From contig CANLHI010000001.1 of assembly GCA_947490845.1 (NCBI GenBank), positions 27,234 through 91,233 of the forward strand: DNA of 64,000 nt, written 5' to 3'. Shown here piece by piece: positions 36,024 to 44,064 of this stretch. A program made the translations under genes and the position numbers. Within the stretch, counting starts at the first letter, position 1. Every line of letters begins with the position of its first letter. Below the pieces are notes generated by a model. That model was not told the DNA's origin, ran no database searches, and was given only the letters and a program-made list of their open reading frames with translations. The stretch comes from Actinomycetota bacterium. GTDB lineage: Bacteria; Actinomycetota; Actinomycetes; Nanopelagicales; Nanopelagicaceae.

Positions 36024-36125
36024 TGCAACAGGCTGCGGCGCACCATCTGTCCACGACTTTGGCACACAAACTCCTTCATTCTTAAAGACTGGCGCGTAAA
36101 ACCACTCGGCCAGTATGCTCATCTT

Positions 36126-37544
36126 ATGCGCACTCAGTTATATATAGAGGGTAAATGGATCGATGGAAACGGGACCGTGGATGTAATTGATCCAAGTGAT
36201 GGCTCGGTAATTGCCAAAGTCGCCACCGCCGGAGACGCCGAAGTTGAGGCCGCCCTTGCCGCCGCTGATCGGGCTGCACCTTCCTGGGCTAAAACGGCAC
36301 CGCGTGTTCGCGGAGAAATTCTGCGCAAGGCATTTGAGTTAATGACGCAAGAGGCAGATTATTTAGCCGAATTGATTTCCAAAGAAAATGGAAAGGCGTT
36401 GCCTGATGCAAGAGGCGAAGTTGCCTATGCTGCGGAATTTTTTCGTTGGTTCTCTGAAGAAGCAGTTCGCGTCAGTGGAGATTTCCGAATGGCGCCAAGT
36501 GGTGACAAGCGAATTCTCGTAACCCACCAACCAGTTGGTCTTTCTCTTCTCATTACCCCTTGGAACTTTCCAGCGGGCATGGTCACGCGCAAGATCGGAC
36601 CAGCAATTGCTGCGGGTTGCACCATGATTTTAAAGCCAGCGGGGGAAACCCCACTTACTGCGCTCGCAATCGTGGACATTCTTGATCGCGCCGGAGTTCC
36701 AAAGGGTGTAGTCAATTTAATTCTGCCAACTCCAACCGGCCCTGCAGTTGCCAAGATGCTCCACGATAAGAGAGTTAAGAATATTTCATTCACCGGTTCG
36801 ACCCAAGTTGGTCGCATCATCCTGAAAGAGGCGGCTGACAATATTATTCGCTGCTCAATGGAGCTCGGCGGAAATGCACCATTTTTAGTTATGGATGATG
36901 CCAATATTGATGAAGCAGTAAAAGGTTTGATGCTCGCTAAATTGCGTAATGGTGGCGCAGCCTGCACCGCAGCAAATCGCATTTATGTGCAACGCCCAGT
37001 TGCAAAAGAGTTTACGGAAAAGTTTGTAGCAGCAATGAGCGCATTTGTTATGGGTCGCGGTCGCGATGCCGGTGTTCAGTTAGGTGCAAGCGTTTCGGTT
37101 AAAGAACGAAATAAAATTGCGGAGTTAGTGGATAGCTCAGTTAAGGCTGGCGCCAAATTATTAACTGGCGGCAAGACACCTGATGGTCCCGGAGCCTTTT
37201 ATCCAGCAACAGTTCTGGAAGTAGATAAAAAGGCCGATATTTTAAATCACGAAATCTTCGGCCCGGTTGCCCCAATCGTAATTTTCGATACTGATGCCCA
37301 AGCTATTGAATTGGCTAATGATGCCGAATACGGTCTTATTAGTTATGTCTTTTCGGAAAACTTAAAGCGCGCGATTCAGTTATCTGAAGCAATTGAATCT
37401 GGAATGGTTGCAATCAACCGTGGGCTTATCTCAGATCCGGCTGCACCTTTCGGCGGCGTTAAGCAATCTGGAATTGGTCGCGAAGGCGGCTTTGAAGGTA
37501 TTCACGAATTCCTTGAGACCAAATACATTGGGGTCGAGATTTAA
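36126..37544 (+). CDS. NAD-dependent succinate-semialdehyde dehydrogenase family
   Basis: PWNFPAGMVTRKIGPAIAAGCTMILKPAGETPL, SFTGSTQVGR, MELGGNAPFLV, NGGAACTAANRIYV. Confidence 0.9.
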   Translation: MRTQLYIEGKWIDGNGTVDVIDPSDGSVIAKVATAGDAEVEAALAAADRAAPSWAKTAPRVRGEILRKAFELMTQEADYLAELISKENGKALPDARGEVAYAAEFFRWFSEEAVRVSGDFRMAPSGDKRILVTHQPVGLSLLITPWNFPAGMVTRKIGPAIAAGCTMILKPAGETPLTALAIVDILDRAGVPKGVVNLILPTPTGPAVAKMLHDKRVKNISFTGSTQVGRIILKEAADNIIRCSMELGGNAPFLVMDDANIDEAVKGLMLAKLRNGGAACTAANRIYVQRPVAKEFTEKFVAAMSAFVMGRGRDAGVQLGASVSVKERNKIAELVDSSVKAGAKLLTGGKTPDGPGAFYPATVLEVDKKADILNHEIFGPVAPIVIFDTDAQAIELANDAEYGLISYVFSENLKRAIQLSEAIESGMVAINRGLISDPAAPFGGVKQSGIGREGGFEGIHEFLETKYIGVEI

Positions 37545-37565: not shown

Positions 37566-37609
37566 GCGGAGGATGAGTCATTTATCCTCTTCAGCCTGGG
37601 TAATTCCCC
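37566..37609 (+). repeat. Copy A of 44-bp intergenic repeat containing a tRNA-Ser 3'-end-like sequence
   Basis: gcggaggatgagtcatttatcctcttcagcctgggtaattcccc; 39/44 identical to copy B by eye. Confidence 0.7.
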
Positions 37610-37726
37610 ATTTACTCTTTCAGCAACTAAGGCGACTGTAACCGCACTACTTGTAGCGATAATTGGTAAGTTTATTGAAAAAACGTCACTGACTTTGACT
37701 TGCGAACGAAATTAGAGAGTATCAGC

Positions 37727-39883
37727 TCATCTACTTTTGTATTGAAAGAATTTATTTGATATCGATTGATTGAAAGAATCCGAAGCTACAAGCGTTGCCG
37801 AAGCAGATTTCTTCTTAACTAAATTTGTAATTTGAATTTGCTCGCCGTCGATTTTTGCAACACAGTTAACGGCAACTATTTGATACTTTATTTTCGGGAG
37901 TTTAGTAAATCTAAAAATATAGTTTCCATTTGTTGACTTGACCAGACTTACTCTTGGCTTGACTAGTAGTGGTGGCGCGGCTGACTTAACTGTGGTTACC
38001 ACTCCCTCCGAAATTTGACCAAAGGCATCGGTAATCTTGATAGTTACATCCACGCTTTGATCAGGATTAAGATCTGAAATTTCAACGTCATCTCCAAGAA
38101 CCAATACATCACCCGCTGAAGCGCTGACATCGTAGTAATATCCATCAGCATTGAGTTCATCGAAAGTAATCTTGACTGAATCCAAATCAGCATCAGTATT
38201 TACTGCAATTGGAAGAATCGGCGGTTTTGGAAGGCTGGTCTTAGCTATGTCAATAAAGCTTATTGACTGTCCATCTGAAGAGCGGCAAGAACCAGATAGT
38301 TTCACTTCCGTTACAGGTTTCACCTTTGAAACGGTGACAGAGCCATCACCTTTCATTCCATTTGAACTCACAGTGCCTGCGTTTGCAGAATATGTACAAG
38401 TGAGATCGTAATCAAGATCATATTTAAATACTATTTGAGAATCTGTAGCAGTCGCATTTTGTAATCCGGGGCGAGTTAAGGTTCCAGGCGCTTGAATAGT
38501 CAAAGTGGCAAGGCTTTGCAGTGGATTTACCATTTTTACTTTAGAGACGGGAGTTGAATTGACTGAACTTGAACCATAGGCATTTGAATAGTCTGTTCTT
38601 CTCTGCTTAGGCTGTGACTGGCAATCTTGATTATCGCTAGAACTTATATCTCTGATAGTTCCTGAACACGAAGTGGCGTAAACCGACAATTGACGCATTA
38701 CATAAACCCCAGGTTCGGAGGTTCTAGTGCTCTTACAGGTCACCGTCACGCCTATCATTTGGTTCACAAACGGCGTAGTTCCGAGATCCTTTACATAACA
38801 CGAAGCCCCGCCTTTGTTGTAGGTCGCTTTATCAGCCCAATTTCCAAATACTTGATTGATATTTGCTCCCTTTCCATCAATATCCATAGTCATATCAAAG
38901 CTATCTCCTGCTTTGATAACAGTTGTTGATACCTTTACATTTGAAATTTCAGGCGCGGCAATGGCAACAGCTGAATCATTCGATACATTTATCTTGATCG
39001 CTGAGATATCAGCTTGTTGTACTGCTCCGGAAGCTGGTTGCCCCCAAGTATTTTGTCCGGGCATGTTCACTATAGAAACTAGGCGATTGAATACTGCAGT
39101 CGAGTTAGTTGGATTTGGATCCGTGCCCCATGGAGTAGATAAATCTATTCCTGCGTATCCGGCAATTTCAACTTTTGAAACAGTCCACGTTCCAGCTGGC
39201 CAATCGGAGCCGACTTCAAAATCAAATGTGCTATCAATTCTTTTTGTATCAGGCCCACTAATACTTGAGTCATACTTAGATAAAAGCTTATAGACCTCAA
39301 TTCCCTCTTGTTGGTTTCGCAAGAAGACCCAAATTGTATTTATTTTTCCAGAGTTGCTAGCAATTACACGAATAGAAATTTTATCTCCAACTTTCCGGTC
39401 GGCCGGAGTTGTCATTTCAATTTTTTCTAACTGAGGTTGCGTAACTGCAGGTGTTAATCCATCAGGCAACACGGTAAAAGAAATTGAATCCAAATTGTCA
39501 GTCCAAGAGGTTTGACTTTGACCATTTGTACAACTCAAGCTCACACCTTGGACCGCGTACTTCCCAGGAGATGCTTCAGCGGTAATCTTCAGTGGAATTT
39601 TAAAAGGCCCTTTTGGGGAAGTTTTGCCCGAAACTTTGCCATTAATTCCGGGAGTATTTGCTATCTGATAGATACCGGTGGGATCGATAAAGGAGACGTA
39701 AATCTGATTAATTGCGCCACTAGTGCAGGCTGCGTCAACATCCCAATAAACAGTCTCTCCTACGCTGTAAGAATTCTTATCAATGCTCACTGAATAAATT
39801 ACATTTCCCGCATGAGATTGAGATGGCGTAATCACCGAAAGAAGTAGACCCAATAGGGACCCCGTGGTGAGATGCTTATTCAC
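37727..39883 (-). CDS. Large secreted protein of unknown function (718 aa, beta-rich)
   Basis: Signal peptide MNKHLTTGSLLGLLLSVITPSQSHA; repeated Ig-like beta-strand segments; apparent GTG start. Confidence 0.75.
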   Translation of the reverse strand: MNKHLTTGSLLGLLLSVITPSQSHAGNVIYSVSIDKNSYSVGETVYWDVDAACTSGAINQIYVSFIDPTGIYQIANTPGINGKVSGKTSPKGPFKIPLKITAEASPGKYAVQGVSLSCTNGQSQTSWTDNLDSISFTVLPDGLTPAVTQPQLEKIEMTTPADRKVGDKISIRVIASNSGKINTIWVFLRNQQEGIEVYKLLSKYDSSISGPDTKRIDSTFDFEVGSDWPAGTWTVSKVEIAGYAGIDLSTPWGTDPNPTNSTAVFNRLVSIVNMPGQNTWGQPASGAVQQADISAIKINVSNDSAVAIAAPEISNVKVSTTVIKAGDSFDMTMDIDGKGANINQVFGNWADKATYNKGGASCYVKDLGTTPFVNQMIGVTVTCKSTRTSEPGVYVMRQLSVYATSCSGTIRDISSSDNQDCQSQPKQRRTDYSNAYGSSSVNSTPVSKVKMVNPLQSLATLTIQAPGTLTRPGLQNATATDSQIVFKYDLDYDLTCTYSANAGTVSSNGMKGDGSVTVSKVKPVTEVKLSGSCRSSDGQSISFIDIAKTSLPKPPILPIAVNTDADLDSVKITFDELNADGYYYDVSASAGDVLVLGDDVEISDLNPDQSVDVTIKITDAFGQISEGVVTTVKSAAPPLLVKPRVSLVKSTNGNYIFRFTKLPKIKYQIVAVNCVAKIDGEQIQITNLVKKKSASATLVASDSFNQSISNKFFQYKSR

Positions 39884-39938
39884 AGCAGAAGTCTACGAGA
39901 TTAAATGAATTTTGAGCAGGGTCAATTTCAATGTGAGC

Positions 39939-39982
39939 GCGGAGGATGAGGGATTTATCCCCTTCAACCCGGGTAATTCCCC
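39939..39982 (+). repeat. Copy B of 44-bp repeat; first 18 bp identical to the tRNA-Ser 3' end
   Basis: gcggaggatgagggatttatccccttcaacccgggtaattcccc. Confidence 0.75.
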
Positions 39983-40113
39983 GTTCTTTAGGTAAACGGG
40001 TCGCAAGTAGCAAGTTAGCACCGTGTTATCTTGCATTCTCCCTCAGTCGGCTAAATTCACCTAGTTGTAACATCCCCCTTTTCGAGTTCCACCCCTGGTG
40101 GTATTTTATTGGG

Positions 40114-41901
40114 ATGAGAAAAATCATCGCCCTCATCCTCATCGGATCACTTTCACTTGTTGGAATTGGATTTGCGCAGGCTGCAAACCCGAAAGCTGGG
40201 ACAAAGTGTGCGACAGCAAATCAAAAGGTGACATATTCTGGAAAAACATTTACCTGCGTTAAAAAGGGTAAATCCCTGGTCTGGGATGCAGGTGTACCTG
40301 TTGCAAAGCCAGCTGCAGGTAAGACAGTCTCTGAAGGTTTTCTCTGCACTGAAGGAAGTGCGCCCGCAAAAGATGCTAAAGGAAACTCTCTCTATTGCAC
40401 TAAAGGTGGAGATGGAAAGAGTTCATGGCGTCCGCGGAGTCAGCAAGGTTCTGGTGGAGGCTCTGGTTCCGGTGGTGGTTCTGGTGGAGGCTCTGGTTCC
40501 GGTGGTGGTTCTGGTGGAGGCTCTGGTTCCGGTGGTGGAGGAAACACTCAGAACGCCGGATTTAAGTTAGGCCAACTCGGTGCAAGTTGCAGTAAGAATG
40601 GTGAAATTGCATGGAATGGATTGATGGCTGCAATTTGTAAGAACGGAAAAGTCAGTTATCTCTTAGCAGCCGATGCACCAAAGACACCTGCAGGTGGTTT
40701 CACATCTCGTCCTGAGTGGTATCCAACACTTGCACAAATTCTCGGTGGACCAGGCGCTACAGAACCAACATGCGCGCCATCCTCAATTTCTTTTACATCT
40801 CCTGTTCTCCCGCTCGACCAATTAGCACCAGCAATTCCTTACGGAATGATGGTTGGTGGACACGTAACACCTATTGACCACGCGTACCTCGGGATCAAAG
40901 CACTCGCTAAGCCGGCTTCACAATTAACAGCTTCAGATTATGTTCCAGTTACCGCACCTGCTGATGGAACTATTACTGAGGTTTCTAATCTCGGTTCTCC
41001 TAATTCATATCGCGTTGTTATTAATCATGGGTGCAATCTTTGGTCTGTCTACATGGTGATGAATAAAGTAACTGGTGTGTTGGCTTCGCTTGCAGCACAG
41101 GCTGCAACATCGGGTTATTTGAAGGCGAATGTAAAAGTTAAAGCTGGTGATGAGTTTGGGCGCCAAGCGGAGACGATGCTTGATTTCAACATATTTGATG
41201 GAACACAGTGGCTACCTGGATTCCAAAACATTCAGTCTTATTTGACGTTGGATACATGGAAGCCATACACGGCTGACTATCTCCCATTCTTTACTCCATC
41301 AATTCGTTCAGCGATGGAAGCCCAGCTACAGAAGACAAGTTCTCCACGTGTTGGAAAAATCGATCACGACATTGCAGGAACTGCATCAGGTAACTGGTTC
41401 TTAGCTGGAACAAACGGATATGCCGGGCGCCTCAATAGCGATTACGAAAATGCAACAGCAATGTTGGGTTCAGGATCTGTTCCAGGAAAAAATGATTACT
41501 CGTGGAGCCACTTAGCAATCGCACCGCATCAAGTAGATACCAAGGCCTGGGTCTTTTCTTCAGGTTGGTGGAAAGATCCAAAGGGTGATGCTGATCAAGC
41601 AGTCCTCGTAGTTGGTCCCGGCCAAGTTGCACCAGATAAACTCACATCAGCGAGTGGCATGGTTGTCTACAAACTTGCACAAATTTCTTACACGCCGCCT
41701 GCAGGAGTTACACCTAACCCACCAGGAAGTATGGCGCCTTGGCCTGTTGGTTACACAGTCGTCACCGGGGATTCGAGTAAAGGAGTCGTTGCACTCCAAG
41801 TTAATGCTGATGGATCTTTGAGTCTTGAGTTAAACACAACGCTCTCCAATCCTGCATCCTTGACGGCATTTACTACTGCAAAGAGAATCTATAACCGATA
41901 G
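40114..41901 (+). CDS. Secreted protein with Gly/Ser linker and M23-peptidase-like C-terminal region
   Basis: Signal MRKIIALILIGSLSLVGIGFAQA; KAGTKCATANQKVTYSGKTFTCVKKGKSLVW domain; (GSGGGSGSGG)3 linker; GGHVTPIDHAYLG...APADGTITEV...RVVINHGCNLWSVYM; start trimmed. Confidence 0.8.
   Translation: MRKIIALILIGSLSLVGIGFAQAANPKAGTKCATANQKVTYSGKTFTCVKKGKSLVWDAGVPVAKPAAGKTVSEGFLCTEGSAPAKDAKGNSLYCTKGGDGKSSWRPRSQQGSGGGSGSGGGSGGGSGSGGGSGGGSGSGGGGNTQNAGFKLGQLGASCSKNGEIAWNGLMAAICKNGKVSYLLAADAPKTPAGGFTSRPEWYPTLAQILGGPGATEPTCAPSSISFTSPVLPLDQLAPAIPYGMMVGGHVTPIDHAYLGIKALAKPASQLTASDYVPVTAPADGTITEVSNLGSPNSYRVVINHGCNLWSVYMVMNKVTGVLASLAAQAATSGYLKANVKVKAGDEFGRQAETMLDFNIFDGTQWLPGFQNIQSYLTLDTWKPYTADYLPFFTPSIRSAMEAQLQKTSSPRVGKIDHDIAGTASGNWFLAGTNGYAGRLNSDYENATAMLGSGSVPGKNDYSWSHLAIAPHQVDTKAWVFSSGWWKDPKGDADQAVLVVGPGQVAPDKLTSASGMVVYKLAQISYTPPAGVTPNPPGSMAPWPVGYTVVTGDSSKGVVALQVNADGSLSLELNTTLSNPASLTAFTTAKRIYNR
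40447..40536 (+). repeat. Three perfect 30-bp tandem repeats coding GSGGGSGSGG
   Basis: ggttctggtggaggctctggttccggtggt x3. Confidence 0.95.
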
Positions 41902-42025
41902 TTCTCGGGGAGTTACCCGTTTCTGAGCGGAGGATGTCCGAGCTTGTGACGTGTAGATAAGGCAGGGGTTCCTCGGGAATAAGCGATTCGGAAATAAGTG
42001 AATCAGTCGAAGCGAGTGAAACGAG

Positions 42026-42110
42026 CGGAGGATGAGGGATTTGAACCCTCGAAAGGTTGCCCTTTACACGCTTTCCAAGCGTGCGCACTCGGCCGCTATG
42101 CGAATCCTCC
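42026..42110 (-). tRNA. tRNA-Ser(GGA)
   Basis: Reverse complement ggaggattcgcatagcggccgagtgcgcacgcttggaaagcgtgtaaagggcaacctttcgagggttcaaatccctcatcctccg; anticodon loop TTGGAAA; long variable arm; T-arm GGTTCAAAT. Confidence 0.95.
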
Positions 42111-42258: not shown

Positions 42259-42324
42259 TATATAGTGAAGGTCAGTGTTTTGTAATAGGTTGTAAATATT
42301 GTTGCGCAGAAGAGAGGAGTGAAT

Positions 42325-44064
42325 ATGTCACTCGCGTTGTATAGAAAATATCGTCCATCGGTATTTGCAGATGTGATCGGACAAGAGCACGTCACCGTTC
42401 CGCTTTCTAATGCACTCACTTCTGGAAAAACACACCACGCATATTTATTTAGTGGACCACGTGGTTGCGGAAAAACTTCTAGCGCTCGCATCATGGCGCG
42501 CTCACTTAACTGCGAAAAAGGCCCAACCCCAACTCCTTGTGGCCTTTGCCAATCTTGTAAAGATTTAGTTGCAAATGGACCGGGTTCACTCGATGTTATC
42601 GAACTCGATGCTGCAACACACGGCTTAGTCGATGATGCGCGCGATCTGCGCGATAAAGCGTTCTTTGCACCCGTACAAAGCCGTTACAAAATTTACATAA
42701 TCGATGAAGCCCACCAACTTGGACCAGGAGCCGCCAACGCGCTTTTGAAAGTTGTTGAAGAACCACCTCCCCACGTAATTTTTATCTTCGCTACAACCGA
42801 ACCAGAAAAATTAATCTCAACTATTCGCTCTCGCACACATCACTACCCATTCCGACTTGTTCCGCCAAGCATCTTGGCAGAACACCTGGAAAAGATATGT
42901 AAAGAAGAAGGCGCCACTGTTGCTAAGGGCGTTATTCCTTTGGCGGTGCGCGCAAGTGGTGGATCAGTTCGTGACGCACTTTCCGTGCTTGGACAACTCC
43001 TTGCAGGTGCCGGTTCAGATGGAGTCAACTACGAGATTGCAATTCAGTTACTTGGATTCACTGATGGTGCACTTCTAGATGATGCCGTTGACGCACTTGC
43101 TGCGCGCGATGGTGCAACGTTGTTTAGAACCGTTGACCGAGTTGTCGAATCAGGACACGATCCCCGCAGATTTGCCGGTGATTTCCTAGAGCGTCTGCGC
43201 GATTTAATGATCGTTGACGCACTTGCTGCAACGAACGCCAATTCAATTCTGCGCGAACTTCCCGATGATCAACTCGAACGCATGCGCACACAAGCAGCCA
43301 ACATAGGCGCTGCAAACTTGTCACGTTGCGCCGACATTGCAGCAGAAGGTTTAACGCAAATGCGCGGTGCAACTGCGCCACGATTAATTCTCGAACTCAT
43401 TTGTGGACGCATGTTGTTGCCAGGTGGGGATAACACCGAAGCTGGAATGCTCTCGCGTATCGAACGTTTGGAGCGCGTTGAAAACATAACCACCGTCGCA
43501 ACGCCAGCCCCAGCAAAAGCCACGGCGCCAACACCAACTAAAACGGTTGCAGATCCCGCACCAAAAGCTGCCGCAAAACCAGAGCCAGTTGTTGTGGCTG
43601 AAAAGGAGGCAGTAGTAGAAGAAATTAAAGAAGTACCTCCAAAATCTTCAAAGGCTGCTTCCAGTCAGCCAATAGATATCGCGGGACTGCGTCGCCTGTG
43701 GCCGGATGTGATCGAAAATGTTAAGAAGCGTCGTCGCCTAACGTGGTCGCTCCTTTCAGCCTCTGCACAAATAGTTGCAGTAGATGAGAAGCTCATAACA
43801 ATTGGAATTGTTAATGCCGGCGCTCGTGACTCTTTCGTTCGCTCTGAGTCAGAGGAAATTTTGCGCCAAGCATTTATTGAAATTGTCGGGATCGATCGCA
43901 AGATCGAAGTTGTAGTTGATGCATCTATTGATATAACTTCAACCCCCGAAGCTCGCGCAGTTCGAAAAGATGAAGCGCCTTCAGATAAGAATTTGTTATC
44001 AGGTGCTGCTTTGCTTGCCGCAGAACTTGGTGGCACGGTAATTAAAGAAAAGAATAAGGGTTGA
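42325..44064 (+). CDS. dnaX: DNA polymerase III subunit gamma/tau
   Basis: [48 protein letters not shown] preceded by agagaggag. Confidence 0.95.

Follow-up and report, generated by a model that had tools for sequence, protein, structure and literature searches.

A tRNA-Ser(GGA) gene in the genome of an Actinomycetota bacterium is adjoined by a tandem array of single-gene cassettes, which are bordered by direct repeats of the 3′ end of the tRNA. The array lies within a stretch of 64,000 nucleotides (GCA_947490845.1, contig CANLHI010000001.1, positions 27,234 to 91,233), referred to here as the window. The window comes from contig C1 of a 1.18-Mb metagenome-assembled genome (MAG, G000), which is 79% complete and whose protein matches identify Planktophila (acI) as its relatives. 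The best explanation of the array, which we consider probable, is that an integrase specific for tRNA-Ser and acting in trans has inserted non-autonomous cassettes in tandem at this one site. In this model, the 3′ end of tRNA-Ser(GGA) would be the bacterial attachment site (attB) for a family of integrative elements, and each cassette would consist of one or two genes and an outer recombination site, made up of the 18-bp tRNA core and an arm of about 26 bp. A tyrosine recombinase supplied in trans would insert the cassettes. Each insertion would keep the tRNA intact and shift the older cassettes outward, producing a tandem array whose outermost member, a 718-aa gene with a mutated core, abuts an aldehyde dehydrogenase gene.

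Repeats and Cassettes at the tRNA Gene

The tRNA-Ser(GGA) is the sole tRNA of the window. The core sequence at its 3′ end, GCGGAGGATGAGGGATTT, occurs at 42025 (no mismatch), 39939 (no mismatch) and 37566 (two mismatches), all in the same orientation. These co-oriented 18-bp repeats had been pointed out in an earlier note on this DNA, and they stand far above what shuffled windows give: 0.01 matches are expected per window and no shuffle contained three copies, which rules out a chance origin. The two copies outside the tRNA have 87% identity along 47 bp, and about 29 bp of this length is not tRNA sequence, so the similarity is more than a tRNA origin accounts for. The repeats and the units that they delimit are as follows.

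42025–42110, minus strand: tRNA-Ser(GGA), the proposed integration target (ARAGORN and Rfam RF00005)
42025–42042, plus strand: core copy 1, 18 bp, the tRNA 3′ end and proposed insertion site (exact search)
39939–39985, plus strand: core copy 2 (39939–39956) with the outer arm, or P arm (sequence comparison)
37566–37612, plus strand: core copy 3 (37566–37583, two mismatches) with the outer arm, hairpin portion gone
41927–41936, plus strand: degenerate fourth core copy, GCGGAGGATG, closing the M23-like cassette
41937–42024, plus strand: 88-bp remnant that terminates in GTGAATCAGTCGAAGCGAGTGAAACGA (sequence and left-flank comparison)
41907–41918, plus strand: GGGGAGTTACCC, candidate decayed inner arm (sequence comparison)
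39939–41926, plus strand: M23-like cassette, shared core to core with contig C17 of genome G060
40114–41901, plus strand: 595-aa protein, signal-like N-terminus, weak peptidase M23 match
37566–39938, plus strand: outer cassette carrying the 718-aa gene
37727–39883, minus strand: 718-aa protein, signal-like N-terminus

The earlier note assigned one large gene to each interval between repeats, and this holds, with the boundary of the proximal interval refined. The degenerate copy GCGGAGGATG is located 25 bp past the 595-aa gene and 88 bp ahead of the tRNA, so the proximal unit really spans 39939–41926 and is followed by a 98-bp remnant. The 88 bp at 41937–42024 probably derive from the end of a cassette since lost, and ends similar to GTGAATCAGTCGAAGCGAGTGAAACGA adjoin the core in several relatives. 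The segment GGGGAGTTACCC may be a decayed inner arm, comparable to GGGGAATTACCC beside the integrase-bearing tRNA-Ser at loci L162, L180 and L186.

The attachment-site cores border the M23-like unit on both sides, and single genes lie alone inside the units, with neither integrase nor transfer genes; no integrase is found among the open reading frames of the array interval. Both proteins have a signal-like N-terminus, as judged by inspection. Family searches gave no match for the 718-aa protein, which has only a distant relative in the genus (27–28%). The 595-aa protein scores 25.7 bits against peptidase M23, under the cut-off of 28.7, and the HxH motif is absent. Both cassettes look aged, the outer one by its mutated core and missing hairpin and the inner one by its degenerate proximal core, and the outer cassette is apparently the older of the two.

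Empty and Filled Sites in Relatives

The regions of relatives were fetched across the genus with dnaX as the anchor, and the interval from the dehydrogenase stop codon to tRNA-Ser was measured in 34 uninterrupted loci, the window included. The flanks are conserved, and on the tRNA side they comprise a small signal recognition particle (SRP) RNA in addition to dnaX.

36123–37544, plus strand: aldehyde dehydrogenase, conserved outer flank
42319–44064, plus strand: dnaX, anchor gene and conserved flank beside the tRNA

Six of the 34 sites are empty (3–18 bp), among them that of the closest relative, G001 (93% in dnaX); the remaining 28 hold 200–8381 bp (0.2–8.4 kb) of differing genes. The events number fewer than the loci, as two of the filled loci are nearly identical. 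The locus is therefore not invariant in relatives, and the earlier reading of the repeats as the footprint of integration at an attachment site is supported. The array qualifies as a tRNA-associated additive island, in that variable genes lie at a conserved tRNA, are missing in some relatives and have direct repeats at their borders. By our own count, about one-third of the dnaX contigs stop less than 500 bp upstream of dnaX, which is as expected if populations differ there, and contigs break for other reasons too.

The commonest cargo in relatives is a two-gene module consisting of a protein of about 110–180 aa, either secreted or membrane-anchored, and an adjacent partner of 109–190 aa (for example L037:15636-16638, L053:13283-15303 and L028:15536-16402, and the islands of other relatives). 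The secreted or membrane-anchored protein has 21 members at 17 loci, and tandem cassettes hold different alleles. The module has no match in Pfam or PADLOC, and a defence role of the cargo was set aside on the lack of a PADLOC match. In a separate observation, about 40 N-terminal residues of the 595-aa protein (about 23–66), a cysteine-containing stretch after the signal region, are matched by cargo in L166, L189, L190, L193, L167 and L073, after which the C-terminal parts differ; this stretch is possibly a shared surface module. The mostly secreted products suggest that the cargo probably varies the cell surface.

A Cassette Common to Two Species

The M23-like cassette occurs in another species, on contig C17 of G060 (L146). 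There, the dehydrogenase is followed by a core with the outer motif, by the M23-like gene and by a core that leads into a truncated tRNA-Ser; next come two further genes for secreted proteins and a last tRNA-Ser, inside which the contig stops. The cores that delimit the unit are those that delimit it in the window, and its neighbours differ on both sides; the degenerate core at 41927–41936 corresponds to an intact core at the cassette end in G060. A check for precise boundaries at the repeat copies, as proposed in the earlier note, thus finds both ends of this cassette at cores. Identity between the two genomes is 88.9% in the motif and upstream region, 87.6% in the gene and 76.7% in the flanking dehydrogenase, and the fall from 88% to 77% is located precisely at the core. 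G060 also has a 56-bp deletion in the motif and upstream region that takes out the hairpin portion.

M23-like homologues are found in other species at 77–81% identity, and in five species a homologue occupies a conserved chromosomal place where the core is absent. A 353-bp match to the window (86.7%) is present in genus g14 (G287, L197). It covers the motif, the promoter region and the beginning of the gene; beyond it the protein differs, and a second, degenerate motif in L197 begins a further secreted-protein gene.

A homologous-recombination hotspot could also produce a locus of varying content. The genes between the dehydrogenase and dnaX would then be exchanged through crossovers, either in the flanking DNA or between copies of the tRNA, and the fragments of the tRNA would be relics with no driving part in the exchange. 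A repeat of 18 bp is, however, short for homologous recombination. The hotspot would explain why the second core is missing from many filled loci, and homologous exchange at fixed islands is known in the form of replacement islands (PMC10872708). The abrupt fall in identity at the core of the M23-like cassette, with differing neighbours on both sides, and the conservation of a non-tRNA arm across genera speak against it, and we regard it as unlikely.

The Outer Motif

The outer motif has a length of 44 bp and the sequence GCGGAGGATGAGGGATTT-ATCCyCTTCAACCyGGGTAATTCCCC. It is present in 26 of the 296 genomes of the family, representing five of 17 genera, and the reversed control gave 0 matches. 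On contigs long enough to tell, copies sit in the tRNA-Ser/aldehyde dehydrogenase region; several copies are at contig ends, where placement is impossible. The confinement of placeable copies to this region, together with the inverted copy of the arm next to a recombinase gene described below, is at odds with ordinary dispersed intergenic repeats.

A hairpin, CCCGTTT/AAACGGG, adjoins the outer arm (columns 42–63 of alignment A1; near 39980–40000 in window copy 2). Pairing reaches 94% across 25 sequences, and two of its seven pairs show double changes, one of them in six sequences that perhaps share descent; we treat its covariation as a lead. This hairpin with some covariation, and the position of the motif about 175 bp ahead of a secreted-protein gene in both the window and L197, would suit a promoter or RNA element that belongs to a secreted-protein gene family, with the arrays arising by tandem gene duplication. 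The other motif copy of the window, however, lies past the 3′ end of an oppositely oriented gene, and unrelated gene families are bordered by further copies in either orientation. Rfam holds no match to the motif, and such an element would leave the tRNA core and the empty sites unexplained, which makes this origin very improbable.

A DnaA-box-like sequence, TTATCCmCA, also lies no more than 80 bp from the core, in a single orientation, at 12 of 96 copies, where shuffles predict 0.05 (left-flank examples in L026, L037, L051 and L165), and some of these copies are related by descent.

A Candidate Integrase at tRNA-Ser

Most of the complete Planktophila genomes contain two tyrosine recombinases, presumably XerC and XerD. 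That they have only these two is as expected if the integrase is supplied in trans, and it fits the suggestion of the earlier note that the cassettes are passive, the window copies having no integrase of their own. In the incomplete genome of the window, two tyrosine recombinases were found, both on other contigs.

The earlier note also proposed looking elsewhere for a tRNA-Ser-directed integrase, and a candidate was found at tRNA-Ser in three genomes of two genera. In G119, G078 and G188, the last of another genus, an extra tyrosine recombinase is encoded immediately downstream of a tRNA-Ser whose 3′ end is the same; in G078, the order is tRNA-Ser(GGA), tRNA-Ser(CGA), recombinase. The protein belongs to the phage integrase family, and its nearest solved relatives are Xer-type. 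The G188 gene (L186:663-1805) is open through to its stop codon, and its product shares 84% identity with the G119 protein. In all three genomes, TTCTGGGGAATTACCCAnGT at the tRNA 3′ end is an inverted copy of the ACCTGGGTAATTCCCC of the outer motif. Attachment sites of tyrosine recombinases usually consist of a core with inverted arms, and the motif is therefore read as the outer half of the attachment site of this enzyme. The outer motif is also present on other contigs of G119 and G188. The recombinase of these three genomes may be the acting enzyme, working in trans on cassettes that may still be moving.

Several points weigh against integration in trans. The second core copy is present in only part of the filled loci, G060 has two dehydrogenase contigs and may mix strains, and the integrase is found in only three of 296 genomes. 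Both ends of an integrase-bearing element occur on no single contig, and the contigs of G119, G188 and G078 share no overlaps. The pairing of outer with inner arm types is statistically not significant, and few cassettes keep a recognisable inner arm.

The units could instead be remnants of larger integrative or conjugative elements that have lost their integrase and transfer genes and are not mobile as such. In G188, the gene after the integrase matches the TraG/TraD C-terminus (PF12696, E = 1e-4), hinting at a conjugative parent; this gene was not found in the thirteen other genomes searched, G119 and G078 included. The partly decayed cores and arms of the window agree with such an origin, but many units measure only about 1–2 kb and have cargo genes that are open and an outer site that is intact, and two species have the compact M23-like unit in common. 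We hold this origin to be possible but doubtful. A viral carrier was also considered and rejected: IMG/VR contains no match to the motif, to the inner arm joined to the core or to the integrase, and the integrase is unmatched in a phage collection as well.

Other tRNA genes were observed in similar settings. Another contig of the window's genome encodes a tRNA-Ser(CGA) whose 3′ end is the same (G000:C2:72173-72232; L199:8150-8233), a possible second attachment site. In some related genera, tRNA-Ser(GGA) and tRNA-Ser(CGA) are adjacent, beside the aldehyde dehydrogenase; this pair may be ancestral, which weakens the idea of a mobile tRNA-Ser(CGA) cassette. Other Planktophila have tyrosine recombinases near tRNA-Arg, tRNA-Tyr, tRNA-Val and tRNA-Leu, whose 3′ ends recur nearby (L149, L152, L154, L177, L147, L148), so tRNA-targeted islands appear to be more general in the genus.

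Comparison with Known Systems

Additive islands at conserved tRNAs are described in Actinomarinales (PMC7771536), in Methylopumilus as fGI-2 (PMC10872708) and in Alteromonas as fGI1 (PMC4119200), where fGI denotes a flexible genomic island. The present locus is like them in that variable cassettes lie at a conserved tRNA, repeats of the tRNA end in direct orientation mark them and the hosts are aquatic bacteria with streamlined genomes. It differs in the arm beyond the tRNA core that is common to genera, the cassette traced between species and the candidate integrase. The ssrA islands of Dehalococcoides are tandem, have 20-bp repeats of the end of the RNA gene, often lack an integration module and are suspected to be cis-mobilizable (PMC3146451). 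Their target is a transfer-messenger RNA (tmRNA), their recombinase is of the serine type and they are larger, whereas here the target is tRNA-Ser, the candidate enzyme is a tyrosine recombinase and the units contain one or two genes.

Integrase-free cis-mobilizable elements (CIMEs) keep their attachment sites and stack at one target by tandem accretion (reviewed in PMC5704250), and both concepts were invoked for the ssrA islands (PMC3146451). CIMEs are by definition decayed integrative and conjugative elements (ICEs) or integrative and mobilizable elements (IMEs), an origin that is only a possibility for the cassettes here. Tycheposons of Prochlorococcus, reported in Methylophilaceae as well, are described in PMC10872708 as tRNA-associated cargo of 4–200 kb with a tyrosine recombinase. 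Set against that description, the units here are mostly 1–4 kb and have no recombinase, those of the window's genome lying on other contigs.

The array also resembles integrons in outline, with one- or two-gene cassettes, one short site each, added at a single platform. Unlike in integrons, the platform here is a tRNA gene, no intI adjoins it and the candidate recombinase matches the integron-integrase model weakly (15.9 against a cut-off of 265). If the cassettes have a folded site like attC, the hairpin beside the arm would be the candidate for it. We tentatively raise the idea of an integron-like capture system in Nanopelagicales, in which tRNA-Ser would be the platform, one- or two-gene cassettes would carry a conserved hairpin site of about 70 bp, and a rare mobile element would supply the recombinase in trans, so that mostly secreted proteins would spread from genus to genus. 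No description of tandem tRNA cassettes in Planktophila or Nanopelagicales was found in the literature searched, a scope that left out most subscription papers. New here are the non-tRNA arm conserved across genera, the cassette traced between species with exact boundaries, the size of the cassettes and the candidate integrase.

Significance

The acI bacteria, Planktophila and its relatives, rank among the most abundant in fresh water, and their genomes are streamlined. The locus appears to be a slot for swapping mostly secreted proteins, at which related species hold other packages or none. If the proposed mechanism is true, a defined slot, a site and a candidate enzyme would explain the exchange of single genes without large mobile elements, and would provide a means to find exchangeable genes, mostly for secreted proteins of unknown function, in these bacteria.

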